Shown one piece after another: positions 46,473 through 51,451 of a DNA stretch of 64,000 nucleotides. Source of the stretch: Spirochaetales bacterium (lineage in GTDB: Bacteria; Spirochaetota; Spirochaetia; Sphaerochaetales; Sphaerochaetaceae); contig JAHDQJ010000004.1 in assembly GCA_018433865.1 (NCBI GenBank), forward strand, positions 186,001 through 250,000, read 5' to 3'. Each line of letters begins with the position of its first letter. The stretch's first letter is position 1. The translations under genes and the position numbers were made by a program. The notes below the pieces were generated by a model that was given only the letters and a program-made list of their open reading frames with translations, ran no database searches and was not told where the DNA came from.

Positions 46473-48194
46473 TTATATCAGCAAATACCCTGCGAGTACG
46501 GCAGTACCGAGGGCGAAGGAGATGAACAGGCCATGGAAATCCCTCGGGCGCTCTCGCACGATCCGCAACACGACCGAACCGGGTCTTGAGGTCGCCGCGA
46601 AGAAGAGAAGTGTACCGGAAGCGACAGTCCATGCCGTCTTGACCAGACTATCGGTCGAGAACAGGTTCGCATTGGCAATCGCAATGACGTTCGCGGGTGC
46701 GAGAAGATCGCTCACCACCGGTATGATCAGGTGGGAGGCAACTCCGCCGGCGATACAAAGGAGGCTCAGAAGTACCTCTGCAACCAAGCGCGGCCAATAG
46801 GGAGTGGTCTCTGTCGAAAGACTTGCTTGGGCCGCAACCTTTGTGCCGCGCCAGTAGATCCTGGAGAGCTTGATGAAGGAGGCAACCGTTCCGACCGAGG
46901 CGATCGAGAGCAGTACGTAGTGTACCGTCCCTTTCAGTGAGTACGTGATCAGATCCTTGCTCACATATCCGTTCAACGGAGGGATGGCGCTGATGGCCAG
47001 CGCCCCCGTCACAAACGCGATGAACGTGATGGGAATCCGTTCCCCTCTCCCCTTGAGGCTGGCAATGGAGGATCTCAACAGGTAGACATTCCGTTCTCCC
47101 GTGACATCCACCGTGGTGCCGACACTGAGGAAGAGCAGCCCCTTGAACAGTGCGTGATAGAACGCATGGAGGAATGCACCTACCATGCAGGCCAAACCTT
47201 CGGGGGTATCGATTCCCCAGCGCAAGGCCATGCCCCAGGCGGCAACGATATAGCCGATCTGACTGATGGAGTGGTAGGCAAGCAGTCGTTTCGCATCCCG
47301 TTGCGAGAGTGCGATCACCACTGCGACCACCGCGGTCAACGCCCCCGCGATACTCATCAGCTCACCGATTTTCGTACCCTCCGGGAGCAGATGGAGGATG
47401 CGCGCGAGTGCAAACAGAGGAGTCTTGATCAGCACTCCGCTGAGGACCGCGGAGACTGCGTGCGGTGAGAGTGCATGTGCATCGGGCAACCATCCGTACA
47501 GCGGCATGATCGCCACCCGGATGGCGACCGCGGAGACCAGCAGCGTGAGGCAAGCCAGGGAGAGGATCCGTTGGGTGGAACCGAGCAGTGCCAAGCCCGC
47601 TTCTATCCCTTGGAATGAAAGTGATCCGGTGAGACGATACAATCCGTAGGTCCCAAGGAGGAAGAAGACCATGGCGGAGGCACTGACCATGAGGTAGGAG
47701 AAAGAGGCGAGGCTCGCACCTGCCTTTCGGCTGGTCGGGATCAACACGTAGCTGGTCATGCCCATGATCTCCAGGCACACGAACAGGTTGAACAGATCAT
47801 TCGTCATGATGGTCGCAGAGAGGGCTGCACATTGGATGAGGAAGATCCCGGTGAATGCAGGACCCCTGGGACCGCCGCCCAGCGAGTAGATCCAAGCGGC
47901 GATGCCGACCGTATAACCAAGGATATTGATCAGCAGGGCCAATCCGTCGAAGCTGAAGGTGATTCCGATACCCTCATGCCACGAACCGATTACCCCTTCG
48001 ATCGCATTGCCGCCGGTCACCAAGGGAAATACATTCGCCAGGACGATCAGGGGAAGCAGCAATCCGATTCCCGCTCCGATGAACTCTACCGTGTCCGCGC
48101 CCTTTCCCTTCGGGAACATGTTCGCACAGAGCGCGAATGCTGCGCCAAGAAGCGGCAGCATGACGGTAGCGAAAACCAGATCCTCAGGCCTCAT
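46473..48194 (-). CDS. mrpD: Mrp/Mbh antiporter large subunit MrpD-like
   Basis: 573 residues, about 14 TM helices, in the NuoL/M/N proton-translocating family. Motifs include ALSATIMTNDLFNLFVCLEIM, VAIMPLYGWLPDAHALSPHAVSAVLSG and RLLAYHSISQIGY; the Lys and Glu typical of the antiporter channel are seen there. It overlaps MrpC by 11 bases at its start. It is the only large antiporter subunit in the operon; there is no NuoL-like MrpA half. Its C-terminal ~140 residues carry extra TMs. Confidence 0.93.
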   Translation of the reverse strand: MRPEDLVFATVMLPLLGAAFALCANMFPKGKGADTVEFIGAGIGLLLPLIVLANVFPLVTGGNAIEGVIGSWHEGIGITFSFDGLALLINILGYTVGIAAWIYSLGGGPRGPAFTGIFLIQCAALSATIMTNDLFNLFVCLEIMGMTSYVLIPTSRKAGASLASFSYLMVSASAMVFFLLGTYGLYRLTGSLSFQGIEAGLALLGSTQRILSLACLTLLVSAVAIRVAIMPLYGWLPDAHALSPHAVSAVLSGVLIKTPLFALARILHLLPEGTKIGELMSIAGALTAVVAVVIALSQRDAKRLLAYHSISQIGYIVAAWGMALRWGIDTPEGLACMVGAFLHAFYHALFKGLLFLSVGTTVDVTGERNVYLLRSSIASLKGRGERIPITFIAFVTGALAISAIPPLNGYVSKDLITYSLKGTVHYVLLSIASVGTVASFIKLSRIYWRGTKVAAQASLSTETTPYWPRLVAEVLLSLLCIAGGVASHLIIPVVSDLLAPANVIAIANANLFSTDSLVKTAWTVASGTLLFFAATSRPGSVVLRIVRERPRDFHGLFISFALGTAVLAGYLLI

Positions 48195-48525
48195 CCTGGA
48201 TACGCCTTTTGATCACGTCGATATCAAACGATCCGCTAGTCCGGTAGAGATGGACCGCGAGTGCGAGGGAGAGGGCAGTGACACAGACTCCGATCACGAT
48301 GGCGGTCAGCATGAGCGCCTGCGGGATCGGATCGGCCGTCGGCCCGATGCCTCCGTACATGATCGGAACCTCGTTTCCTATCCTGCTTCCTTCGAGTATG
48401 AAAAGGATCACCACGGAAGCGTTGATGATGTTCAGCCCGAAAATTTTCTTGATGATGTTCCGGTGAGCCATGATTGCCCAAAAGCCGATCATGAAGAGGA
48501 CCAGAAGCAGTATCCGCTCAATCAT
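48184..48525 (-). CDS. mrpC: MrpC (NuoK-like) antiporter subunit
   Basis: 113 residues, three TM helices. FWAIMAHRNIIKKIFGLNIINASV and DPIPQALMLTAIVIGVCVTALSLALAV are conserved NuoK/MrpC segments. It overlaps the MbhE-MrpB fusion by 8 bases, and MrpD by 11. Confidence 0.93.
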   Translation of the reverse strand: MIERILLLVLFMIGFWAIMAHRNIIKKIFGLNIINASVVILFILEGSRIGNEVPIMYGGIGPTADPIPQALMLTAIVIGVCVTALSLALAVHLYRTSGSFDIDVIKRRIQDEA

Positions 48526-49285
48526 GGTTTGCTCCTCCCATCATGACGATGCACATGAACGCAAGGCTGGAGCCGACTTTCATGCCGATGATGCAGTTCA
48601 TGAGGATGATGAACCCCTCAGGAGTCCCGCTGACTGCGAGCGGATTCCCGAAGAAACCTTCCTCGAGGAACACGCCGCTCATCGCACTCAGGATGAACAG
48701 GAGGAATGCGATATTCTCCATTCCCCCGAGAATCGCGGGACGTACGAGGACCGACTTGTCCTCGTAGGGATTGCCCAGTGCGAGGAAGACGATGCCGCTG
48801 GCGATGATCACTCCGCCTTGGAATCCTCCCCCCGGAGAGAGATGTCCATAGAGCATCACATAGAATCCGAACAGGAGCACGATCGGACCGACTTTACCGG
48901 TCACCTCCTCCAGGAGGTTCGTTCTCAATGCATGAGAAACCCGTTTCTCCAGGGAGAGGGAGAAGCCCTTGGCGTTCGGGGAAGATGTATCCTCGGGTCC
49001 TGGCGATACCAAGGACTCCACCCGTGCCAAGAGCGAGAGCGTCCCGGTGACGGCAATCAGGAGCACGATGGTCTCGCCCAGGGTATCGAACGCACGGTAG
49101 CCGAGATATATGGCGCTTACAAGGTTGACTGCACCGCTTTCGGCCTGGCCTTGTGCCATCAGGTAGTCACGTGCCGTGACCGGCCAAGACGCGTCGCTCA
49201 GGAAAATGGGTGCCATGACTGCCCCGATGAGCACGAGGGAAGCGAAGATCCTAATGTTCCTCCAGGCGGTTTTGCCATCATTCAT
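48518..49285 (-). CDS. mrpB: MbhE-MrpB fusion subunit
   Basis: 255 residues. The first ~95 residues, containing NLVSAIYLGYRAFDTLGETIVLL, match the MbhE/C-terminal MrpA segment. The rest is MrpB: GFYVMLYGHLSPGGGFQGGVIIASG, then VLVRPAILGGMEN. The start ATG 49285 overlaps the DUF4040 gene by 8 bases. In Pyrococcus Mbh these are separate MbhE and MbhF, and in Bacillus the first piece is the MrpA tail. Confidence 0.9.
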   Translation of the reverse strand: MNDGKTAWRNIRIFASLVLIGAVMAPIFLSDASWPVTARDYLMAQGQAESGAVNLVSAIYLGYRAFDTLGETIVLLIAVTGTLSLLARVESLVSPGPEDTSSPNAKGFSLSLEKRVSHALRTNLLEEVTGKVGPIVLLFGFYVMLYGHLSPGGGFQGGVIIASGIVFLALGNPYEDKSVLVRPAILGGMENIAFLLFILSAMSGVFLEEGFFGNPLAVSGTPEGFIILMNCIIGMKVGSSLAFMCIVMMGGANHD

Positions 49286-49517
49286 GGCGATCTTCCTTCC
49301 TCTGGGAGTGCCGAAGTGCCCATACGAAGATGACTGTGGACACCCCTGCGCCAACCGCGGCTTCGGTGATCGCGACATCAGGAGCTTCGAGGATATAGAA
49401 GAGGATCGCACAGGAGAGGCTGATCGCACTCATCGCGACGACACCGTGCAGCAAGTCGCTCGAGAACAGTGCGAATACCGCCAGCAGGATGATCAGCGTA
49501 AGCAAAAGTATGGTCAC
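49278..49517 (-). CDS. MbhD-like (DUF4040) antiporter subunit
   Basis: 79 residues, GTG start at 49517 after AGCAGGAAAA. Two to three TM helices; SDLLHGVVAMSAISLSCAIL and EAPDVAITEAAVGAGVSTVI are the DUF4040/MbhD pattern found as part of MrpA in Bacillus. Easily missed because it is short and begins with GTG. It overlaps MrpG by 4 bases. Confidence 0.88.
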   Translation of the reverse strand: MTILLLTLIILLAVFALFSSDLLHGVVAMSAISLSCAILFYILEAPDVAITEAAVGAGVSTVIFVWALRHSQRKEDRHE

Positions 49518-49852
49518 TTTTCCTGCTCCTTGTCCGTGATGTTGCGCCGCTTTTTCGGTTTCCAAACCGGAAGTCCGGTTTCCCACGTGAATCTCCCGAC
49601 GATATAGGATCCTGTAGGGGCGCTGATGAGAAAGAAGATCATGATGATCACGATCCGTGCCGCCGTCGCACGGTCGGGAGCCAACAACAACGATCCGATG
49701 AAAACGGAGAACGTCGCTGTGGTCCCCAACAATCCTCCGGCATGCATCCTTGCATAGGGATCGGGGAACCTGAACATGCCGATCATGCCTGCGGTACCGA
49801 AGATGATCGCACTTGCGAAGGCCACCAAGGCCAGCCACTCCCGTACTGCCAT
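49514..49852 (-). CDS. mrpG: MrpG antiporter subunit
   Basis: 112 residues from ATG 49852 (GGGGAGG upstream; an ATG 6 codons earlier is in frame but would lie on that ribosome site). AGMIGMFRFPDPYARMHAGG is the MrpG signature. Three TM helices; ends in a basic tail. Confidence 0.92.
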   Translation of the reverse strand: MAVREWLALVAFASAIIFGTAGMIGMFRFPDPYARMHAGGLLGTTATFSVFIGSLLLAPDRATAARIVIIMIFFLISAPTGSYIVGRFTWETGLPVWKPKKRRNITDKEQEK

Positions 49853-49853
49853 C

Positions 49854-50132
49854 CTATTGTTCCTCCCCATCGGACATCCTGTCCTTCAGGAACCGGGCGA
49901 TCGCCAGGAACCCCAAGAACCCGAAGATGTCGTAGACGAGTGCGACATCAAGGTAGAGTACCCGTTTTTCCCATACCCCGCGTACCACGAGGAAGGCGAG
50001 GGTGACACCGGAGAGGATGTTGAGTGCGACCAGACGATCGGCGGAAGTCGGTCCGAGCAACAGCCTGATGACGCATATGCCTGCGCTGACCAGGAGGAAC
50101 CACTGCATCGTATGAAGAAGGATCATGCTCAT
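49854..50132 (-). CDS. mrpF: MrpF antiporter subunit
   Basis: 92 residues, three TM helices. CVIRLLLGPTSADRLVALNIL and ALVYDIFGFLGFLAIARFL are conserved in MrpF. The start at 50132 overlaps the mrpE stop by 4 bases. Confidence 0.92.
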   Translation of the reverse strand: MSMILLHTMQWFLLVSAGICVIRLLLGPTSADRLVALNILSGVTLAFLVVRGVWEKRVLYLDVALVYDIFGFLGFLAIARFLKDRMSDGEEQ

Positions 50133-50641
50133 GGCCAGATGTTTCCTATGAAACGTTCCATCCGGCCCTTGACCCGTTCCCCTGCCGCCTTCGCGTGGTT
50201 CGTGTCGCAAAAGAGCCAGTGTACCGTCAGATGGTCGTCGTTCAGGTCCAGCGTGATGGTCCCTGGCGTGATGGTGATGGAGTTGGCCAGGATCATCCTC
50301 GCGACATCACTTCTCAGTCGTGTCCGGAAATGTACGATCCGAGGCGAGACTTCTCCCGTGAACACCGCCCGGAGCATCATGACGCTCGATTGGTAGAGAA
50401 ATGCGATGATGATGAACAGGTAGAGGACCAGATGCAGCGGATTGGGCACGATGTACCGCAGGTTTGCCTGGTGTTCCGCAATGAACACCGTGTGGGTCAA
50501 AGCTCCGATGCCGACCGATCCGATCGCACCGAAAATGAGTGAGTAGGGTTCAAGACTTGCGGTGAACACAAGCCATACGAGATAGAGGAAGAAAGAAGTA
50601 AGGAGAAACCGAACCACATGCCACCGGCGTTCCACGTTCAT
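50129..50641 (-). CDS. mrpE: MrpE antiporter subunit
   Basis: 170 residues. Two N-terminal TM helices (VRFLLTSFFLYLVWLVFT), the FRTRLRSDVARMILANSITITPGT motif and TLDLNDDHLTVHWL are characteristic of MrpE/MnhE. First membrane subunit in the operon, 4-base overlap with the EIIA-like gene. Confidence 0.92.
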   Translation of the reverse strand: MNVERRWHVVRFLLTSFFLYLVWLVFTASLEPYSLIFGAIGSVGIGALTHTVFIAEHQANLRYIVPNPLHLVLYLFIIIAFLYQSSVMMLRAVFTGEVSPRIVHFRTRLRSDVARMILANSITITPGTITLDLNDDHLTVHWLFCDTNHAKAAGERVKGRMERFIGNIWP

Positions 50642-51102
50642 CCGTTCATCTCCCCCTTGCAGATGGCCCCGAGGAACTCATCCGCCGACGTAGCCGCGCG
50701 CAAGCTTTTGCGACTCTCCTCATCATGCAGGATGCGGGCAAGCTTCGAGAGCAGCTTGAGGTGTGCCATCGCCCTTCGTGCCGGTCCGACCAGGAGGAAG
50801 ACCAGGGAAACCGGCAGGCCGTCCGGTGTATCCAAAGTCACCGCAGTGGCCAACCGTGCGGCTACGATGAGGCTTGTGTGTACGGTATCGGAGTGAGCGT
50901 GGGGGATGGCACATCCGTTGCCGATGCAGGTGGAAGATAATTGTTCCCGCGCCATGACTTCCCGTACCAGACGGTCAGGATCCGATACCGGTACCTCGGC
51001 GGTGAGAGCGGTCACCATGGTCCTGATGATCTGCTTGAGGTCCTGTTCCTGCACATCAAGGAGGACACATCTTGGCGCAAGCCGATTGCAAATTCCTTCC
51101 AC
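50638..51102 (-). CDS. PTS EIIA (fructose/nitrogen-type) domain protein
   Basis: 154 residues, GTG start at 51102 with GAGG seven bases upstream. The active-site region STCIGNGCAIPHAHSDTVHTS retains the phosphorylatable His of the EIIA-Fru/EIIA-Ntr fold, and VSLVFLLVGPARRAMAHLKLLSKLARIL fits the family. Without EIIB/EIIC near it, it is likely regulatory. The gene follows the P-II-like gene by one base (stop at 51104) and overlaps mrpE by 4 bases, so it probably controls the antiporter, by analogy with EIIA-Ntr and potassium systems. That is inference. Confidence 0.85.
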   Translation of the reverse strand: MEGICNRLAPRCVLLDVQEQDLKQIIRTMVTALTAEVPVSDPDRLVREVMAREQLSSTCIGNGCAIPHAHSDTVHTSLIVAARLATAVTLDTPDGLPVSLVFLLVGPARRAMAHLKLLSKLARILHDEESRKSLRAATSADEFLGAICKGEMNG

Positions 51103-51103
51103 G

Positions 51104-51451
51104 CTACACCTCTTCCTCTTCCGGGACCAATCCGGAAACCCAATCCACCGGTACGGTGAACATGATTCCCGTGCCCCCATTGTCCAGGCCTCCGATCAAC
51201 GGGTCGACCAGTTTTCTTACCCTATCCACCGTCTGCATGTCCTTCACGACGGAGAGGATGGTCTTGTTGTAGGGCTTGTTACCCTTCATGAACTCCTTGA
51301 ACGCAGCGAACAGCGGTACCTCATACGCCAAGAAGCGACCCATCCCCTCGGAATCGAGGATCGTCGCTCCCGTGACTCCGGCTTCGACATACGCTTCGAG
51401 GACCTCCTCGAGGAACTCTTCGTTGTTCAGGACAAAGACCAACAGTTTCAT
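51104..51451 (-). CDS. P-II-like signalling protein
   Basis: 115 residues. The ferredoxin-like P-II pattern is visible: MKLLVFVLNNEEFLEEVLEAY at the start, GVTGATILDSEGMGR, and a C-terminal DNGGTGIMFTVPVDW in the place of the P-II C-loop strand. The uridylylation Tyr of the canonical T-loop is not seen. It is the promoter-proximal gene of the Mrp operon. Such proteins usually bind adenine nucleotides or c-di-AMP and regulate transport; the ligand here is unknown. Confidence 0.8.
   Translation of the reverse strand: MKLLVFVLNNEEFLEEVLEAYVEAGVTGATILDSEGMGRFLAYEVPLFAAFKEFMKGNKPYNKTILSVVKDMQTVDRVRKLVDPLIGGLDNGGTGIMFTVPVDWVSGLVPEEEEV

Follow-up and report, generated by a model that had tools for sequence, protein, structure and literature searches.

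An operon for an Mrp-type antiporter in the window, the whole 64,000-nucleotide stretch of Spirochaetales bacterium DNA analysed here, is led by two genes that encode a P-II-like regulator and a PTS EIIA protein. The association of this pair with Mrp is conserved in many spirochaetes and also in a few bacteria of other groups; fusions of the same two domains lie beside CPA-type Na+/H+ exchangers, an arrangement that is new in this analysis. We think it rather probable that a ligand-sensing P-II protein and a phosphorylatable EIIA constitute a two-input post-translational switch for monovalent-cation/proton antiporters, which probably ties ion exchange to the energy or carbon state. This proposal is built on the gene order, its conservation, the fusions, the kept phospho-acceptor His, the predicted P-II fold and the presence of EI, HPr and HprK genes.

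Organization of the operon

The P-II-like gene, preceded by a GGGGTG-like ribosome-binding site, begins with ATG at 51451 and stops with TAG at 51106-51104. The EIIA gene begins with GTG at 51102, one base past this stop, and its TGA ends at 50638, while the mrpE ATG at 50641 lies within an ATGA, giving a 4-base overlap. The initial annotation had reported the two regulatory genes at 50638-51451 with a 1-base gap between them and a 4-base overlap with mrpE, and this description is exact. Overlaps are also found at the E/F, F/G, G/MbhD, MbhD/B, B/C and C/D junctions, so that the genes from the P-II-like gene to mrpD can be taken as one operon, spanning 51451-46473 (Table 1).

Table 1 Genes of the regulator-led Mrp operon and its flanks in the window
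Feature	Coordinates	Strand	Evidence and remarks
Flavodoxin-like gene	51608	+	Named by reading; upstream of the P-II-like gene and divergent
P-II-like regulator, 115 aa	51104..51451	-	PF00543 24.8 bits (cut-off 25), E 2.9e-5; AF2 P-II fold
PTS EIIA (PTS_EIIA_2, PtsN/Fru type)	50638..51102	-	PF00359 112 bits (cut-off 27); GTG start
mrpE (MbhA-like)	50129..50641	-	PF01899 112.5 bits
mrpF	49854..50132	-	PF04066 57.9 bits; start inferred, ATGA overlap
mrpG	49514..49870	-	PF03334 65.3 bits
MbhD-like subunit (= C-terminal part of classical MrpA)	49278..49517	-	PF13244 77.6 bits; GTG start inferred
MbhE + MnhB fusion (mrpB)	48518..49285	-	PF20501 and PF04039; start inferred
mrpC	48184..48525	-	PF00420 81.5 bits
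mrpD	46473..48194	-	PF00361 157.7 bits; sole antiporter-like subunit seen in operon
Uncharacterised protein, 431 aa	45103..46398	-	3' of mrpD

MrpE, F, G, MbhD, MbhE+MnhB, C and D all score above their Pfam cut-offs, and this set of subunits, in this order, is of the Mrp/MBH antiporter type. No NuoL-like MrpA part was recognised within the Mrp operon (window 46473-50641). The anatomy of this region is MBH-like, with MbhD standing alone, MbhE fused to MnhB, and MrpD as the single antiporter-like subunit. The place of the 431-aa protein after mrpD is kept in two contigs of the same genus (L137 and L138, 60 and 62% identity).

The P-II-like protein

The P-II-like protein falls narrowly under the Pfam cut-off (Table 1), and each of its 48 alignment members matches PF00543 with E ≤ 0.01. 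Its AlphaFold2 model (pLDDT 75.4, pTM 0.70) has the P-II order of elements, strand-helix-strand, T-loop, strand-helix-strand, with a poorly predicted T-loop (pLDDT about 54). A Foldseek search with this model ranked P-II proteins first (best E 8e-5). VIA-align placed SbtB on top (Z 10.3, rmsd 2.1 over 83 residues), with a Z of 10.1 to PotN and 9.5 to CPII and overall values of 9-10 over 75-98 residues; as SbtB, PotN, CPII and GlnB/GlnK all lie within about 1 Z, the best structural matches are tied. The model predicts a P-II superfamily fold with a T-loop, the motif of which is DSEGMGRFLxYEVPLFxxFxxFMKGNxPYNKTI.

Judged by its sequence, the protein is not a classical GlnB. Scores against the NCBIfam GlnB/GlnK equivalogs were 15.9 bits for a cut-off of 202 and 12.9 bits for a cut-off of 181, and because these lie far under the cut-offs we rejected the reading of the protein as a nitrogen P-II. 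Lys90, Arg101 and Arg103, which we take to be the ATP contacts of classical P-II proteins, have no equivalents in the aligned C-terminal part, the C-terminal strand contains no Arg, the B-loop is GxG-Ile, and there is no Cys in the 115 residues. The nitrogen link suggested by the initial annotation is not supported.

A weak P-II match elsewhere in the host's own genome (C38) was treated as spurious, as neither the window P-II nor any other seed confirmed it. Two leads from the literature were also set aside: in the excerpts available, the P-II-like lead from Borrelia is an unrelated DUF2179 membrane protein (PMC6516651), and the Heliorestis paper merely cites a P-II-like nitrogen sensor (PMC7143216).

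EIIA and the host phosphorelay

The EIIA protein aligns with solved PtsN structures (E 6.7e-17), and His68, in the motif IPHAH, falls on the His of the PtsN motif IPHGR. Its score against the PtsN equivalog TIGR01419 is 76.9 bits, below the cut-off of 138.7. The phospho-acceptor is present in 79 of 80 aligned EIIA rows (the window and 79 other loci, including the L162 domain, which does not adjoin P-II), the exception being L176, with Gln. There are four EIIA_2 matches in the 2.9-Mb host genome, and beside a second host EIIA is a gene that weakly matches the exchanger seeds (L239).

The host genome has an EI-like gene and one HPr gene, which adjoins the gene for HPr kinase (HprK), and it gave no match to PTS_EIIC (PF02378, the sole EIIC family searched). 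Among 20 genomes of the named loci (defined below), HPr was not found in five (L158, L171, L177, L181, L194), all of which have EIIA and several of which are small MAGs; the HPr match in the L167 genome lies under the cut-off.

Conservation of the gene order

We read gene contexts from stop-to-stop frames and BLAST in three samples, at family level, at phylum level and among named loci (the best 80 of 130 confirmed stretches); since some genomes are common to these samples, the counts are not independent. In the family sample the P-II query matched 29 of 139 genomes (E ≤ 0.001). Among the 23 strong matches (E ≤ 1.1e-20), 21 read P-II-EIIA-mrpE; contig ends interrupt the remaining two (L012, L027). 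The gene for MrpE occurs in 21 of the 139 genomes, and the same 21 carry the window-type P-II. Four of these (L075-L078) have a second Mrp operon, with no P-II or EIIA in its 1.5-kb flanks. An RCK/TrkA-type-like gene, recognised by eye, precedes the second, P-II-free Mrp operon in two contigs of the same genus (L077, L078:541-1242).

In the phylum sample, the P-II profile matched 40 of 392 Spirochaetota genomes (E ≤ 1e-4), 25 of them strongly (E ≤ 8.4e-31). Each of these 25 has EIIA next to P-II, and 23 keep the full P-II-EIIA-mrpE order; in the two exceptions (G201, G447) mrpE sits in another operon, of the P-II-free type. The initial annotation had named loss of the pair's conservation with Mrp in relatives as the outcome that would refute its idea; instead, mrpE is carried by 25/25 of the P-II genomes, compared with 68 of the 392 overall. 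The remaining 43 of these 68 have no window-type P-II, from which it follows that Mrp also works without it.

The named loci belong mostly to Spirochaetia, among them Sphaerochaeta halotolerans, Breznakiella homolactica, Alkalispirochaeta alkalica and Gracilinema caldarium, and the other record titles include Aerophobetes, Aegiribacteria, Fermentibacteria, Deltaproteobacteria and Bacterium UASB270. Among these best 80 of 130, EIIA follows P-II at a distance of at most 300 nt in 78 and mrpE is present in 71; in four (L142, L153, L159, L176) the contig breaks off too early to show mrpE. With at least 900 bases of room, which 75 of the 80 have, 68 read P-II-EIIA-mrpE, five have P-II-EIIA without mrpE downstream (L157, L163, L191, L197, L207) and two read P-II-mrpE with no EIIA in between. 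The names of L163/L173 and L172/L197 point to the same two assemblies, so that these look like duplicates of a Mrp-linked pair. In L167, P-II directly precedes mrpE and EIIA is absent. P-II also directly precedes mrpE at the operon head in L162 (UASB270), where the EIIA domain is C-terminal in a 611-aa transporter-like protein encoded right after mrpD (L162:12757-14592). Conservation of the pair with Mrp extends well outside the host genome. Chance neighbourhood was rejected, as a genome with four EIIA_2 genes per 2.9 Mb would hardly place one near P-II in 78 of the best 80 of 130 loci.

In a tree of 119 MrpE sequences, a single branch (support 98) separates 90 sequences with P-II from 29 without. 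The distribution of P-II on this tree needs one gain or loss, compared with at least 21 changes in 500 label shuffles; duplicate and short sequences were removed before these counts, and one of the loci scored as P-II-free (L209) is nearly without upstream flank. The one-branch split implies that the P-II/EIIA regulators belong to one Mrp lineage.

The mean pairwise identity among the named loci (best 80 of 130) is 0.68 for P-II, the highest in the operon, and 0.37 for EIIA, with 0.52 for MbhD, 0.51 for C, 0.49 for E, 0.47 for F, 0.43 for B, 0.42 for G and 0.39 for D. Together with the nearly invariant His, this level of identity indicates purifying selection on P-II and on His68 of EIIA. Mirror-tree correlations, calculated without rows L162 and L167, were 0.60 for P-II/EIIA, 0.73 for P-II/MrpE and 0.80 for EIIA/MrpE; such values are expected from co-inheritance and do not demonstrate contact.

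EIIA-P-II fusions and exchanger-linked loci

In addition, we identified in Spirochaetota proteins of about 270-280 aa in which a P-II domain follows an EIIA domain. Ten such fusions were aligned, and in the eight whose neighbours were scanned with Pfam (all but L036 and L073) the neighbour is a PF00999 exchanger. The fused P-II domain matches the Mrp-type P-II with an hhalign probability of 99.7 (E 2e-25, 38% identity), and by sequence the two are of the same subfamily. EIIA, exchanger and P-II are found as separate genes in L037, where the exchanger was identified by Pfam, and in L038 and L042, where it was identified by eye. In L110 and L111 an exchanger lies beside P-II and EIIA was not found nearby, and in the more distant loci L117 and L118 EIIA and P-II occur, but no exchanger was recognised close by. 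The T-loop motif is common to the Mrp-linked and exchanger-linked P-II proteins.

That the two domains are fused argues strongly for joint action of EIIA and P-II, and the occurrence of the same module beside CPA-type exchangers makes their association wider than Mrp. Antiporters from two unrelated families recur as neighbours, which suggests that these are the joint target of EIIA and P-II.

Several other genes accompany these regulators. An HTH_17-EIIA fusion heads operons with the EIIA-P-II fusion and a Na+/H+ exchanger in L035 (756-1457, by Pfam) and L036 (7808-8512, by similarity), followed in L036 by a GGDEF gene, and a gene for a protein with two CBS domains lies between the Na+/H+ exchanger and the fusion in L115 (5058-5528). 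P-II proteins beside DUF1538, the pair in the host included, have a shorter T-loop; in the host genome two DUF1538 genes flank a tandem P-II-like gene (L125, G000:C33), with no EIIA in the stretch read there.

Proposed mechanism and alternatives

In the mechanism that we favour, the P-II-like protein would probably form a trimer, bind an adenyl nucleotide or some other small ligand, and dock through its conserved T-loop. EIIA would receive a phosphate on His68 from EI and HPr, which belong to a PTS for which the PF02378 search found no sugar permease, so that the state of EIIA would follow PEP/pyruvate and the status of the HPr kinase. The two proteins, presumably in contact with each other, would act jointly at the cytoplasmic face of the antiporter, Mrp in the window and CPA-type exchangers in the sister systems, and ion exchange would be switched on and off by energy and carbon state. 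By analogy with PtsN-YcgO, our guess for the sign of the control is that unphosphorylated EIIA inhibits the antiporter. The regulatory link to the antiporter put forward in the initial annotation, shorn of its nitrogen part, gains weight from the conservation with Mrp, His68, the phosphorelay genes and the fusions. Our confidence in the switch is restrained by the orphan pairs, the five genomes with EIIA in which HPr was not found and the many Mrp operons that are free of the pair. The incomplete set of known P-II ATP contacts, the poorly predicted T-loop and L167, with P-II and Mrp and no EIIA, also count against it.

We put at somewhat less than even chances the broader reading of a general bacterial module, in which this P-II subfamily and EIIA, as separate or fused proteins, would gate the unrelated Mrp and CPA antiporters. 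Such a module would bring together a nucleotide signal and His phosphorylation that depends on PEP, and would be an output of the spirochaete phosphotransfer systems that have no sugar permeases.

The five pairs without mrpE, together with the exchanger-less L117 and L118, mean that the P-II-EIIA pair may have other targets. They speak for an unlikely alternative, that P-II and EIIA signal as a pair mainly to a target other than Mrp and are co-transcribed with Mrp only to keep their dose in step with it; P-II would then mainly read or control the phosphorylation of EIIA, and EIIA would act elsewhere in the cell. The domain fusion, suggesting that the two need each other, agrees with this, as does the T-loop motif common to Mrp-linked and exchanger-linked P-II, which fits a shared partner such as EIIA. 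However, cation antiporters of unrelated families recur as neighbours, with mrpE in 71 of the best 80 of 130 loci and PF00999 beside 8/8 of the fusions checked, and in L110 and L111 it is P-II that accompanies the exchanger, with EIIA not nearby.

A slightly poorer prospect is that control of the antiporter falls to EIIA alone, on the model of PtsN and YcgO, with P-II serving EIIA as a ligand-dependent antagonist or chaperone and never touching Mrp. The PtsN precedent and the fusions would suit such a division of labour, and so would L162, where a transporter-like protein carries the fused EIIA domain and P-II is still at the operon head. Against it, conservation is much stronger in P-II than in EIIA (mean identity 0.68 and 0.37), P-II directly precedes mrpE in L167 where there is no EIIA, and its structural relatives SbtB and GlnK themselves bind transporters, as seen in structures of the complexes. 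That an ordinary nitrogen P-II and an unrelated PtsN happen to precede Mrp, with no functional link, is very improbable: the near-miss at the Pfam cut-off and the likeness of EIIA to PtsN would allow it, but the conservation data already contradict it, with adjacency in 78 of the best 80 of 130 loci across Spirochaetia, Aerophobetes, Fermentibacteria and other titles, the fusions, and a P-II clade that tracks the MrpE clade.

If the switch is real, a single device setting ion gradients and pH would couple P-II and the PTS, and the permease-less PTS of spirochaetes would acquire a testable role. It would also offer a handle on post-translational control in Mrp/MBH-type antiporters. Control of transporters by P-II and by EIIA is known for each, and, as far as we could see, the joint module is apparently undescribed. 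Among the papers that our searches of open-licence PMC literature listed, no title or abstract described P-II and EIIA with Mrp or another antiporter, or a link of either one to Mrp; given this scope, the negative is weak evidence of absence.

Comparison with known systems

The window subunits E, F, G, MbhD, MbhE+MnhB, C and D resemble the Mrp/MBH module in standing in what we take to be the Mbh order. In contrast to that module, the operon is led by two regulatory genes and has a single antiporter-like subunit, and no hydrogenase genes were recognised, by eye, downstream of it.

As in SbtB-SbtA and GlnK-AmtB, a P-II-fold protein is paired with a membrane transporter, which is bound in those systems and a candidate target here; the VIA matches include SbtA-SbtB complexes (7egk and 8zor, Z 9.8 each). 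The candidate target in the window is the multi-subunit Mrp, with an EIIA partner present, whereas SbtB binds a bicarbonate transporter, and sbtA does not neighbour the window-type P-II, which adjoins EIIA and mrp genes instead. A C-terminal Cys redox loop is a feature of SbtB; the window P-II has no C-terminal Cys loop, and identity is just 15-20%. CPII and PotN are alike in their P-II-like fold, as judged from the predicted model, and we know of no link of either to EIIA or to an antiporter.

A PTS without permeases is reportedly present in Treponema denticola, the subject, by its title, of a 2005 paper by Gonzalez that PMC2937029 cites. As far as that title goes, the host relay is alike in being a spirochaete PTS with no sugar permease found by the PF02378 search, and the window supplies a concrete candidate output of such a relay.

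The closest precedent for EIIA is the unphosphorylated PtsN (EIIA-Ntr) of E. coli, which binds and inhibits the CPA1 K+/H+ antiporter YcgO, according to the part of the source available (PMC11808508). In both cases a PTS_EIIA_2-type EIIA acts, or is predicted to act, on a cation/proton antiporter according to His phosphorylation. The PtsN-YcgO system differs in that no P-II partner is described for it in that part of the source (PMC11808508), whereas the window EIIA is encoded together with both its candidate antiporter and P-II. If our reading holds, EIIA-antiporter control of the PtsN-YcgO type would extend to regulators that are encoded, or even fused, within the antiporter locus.
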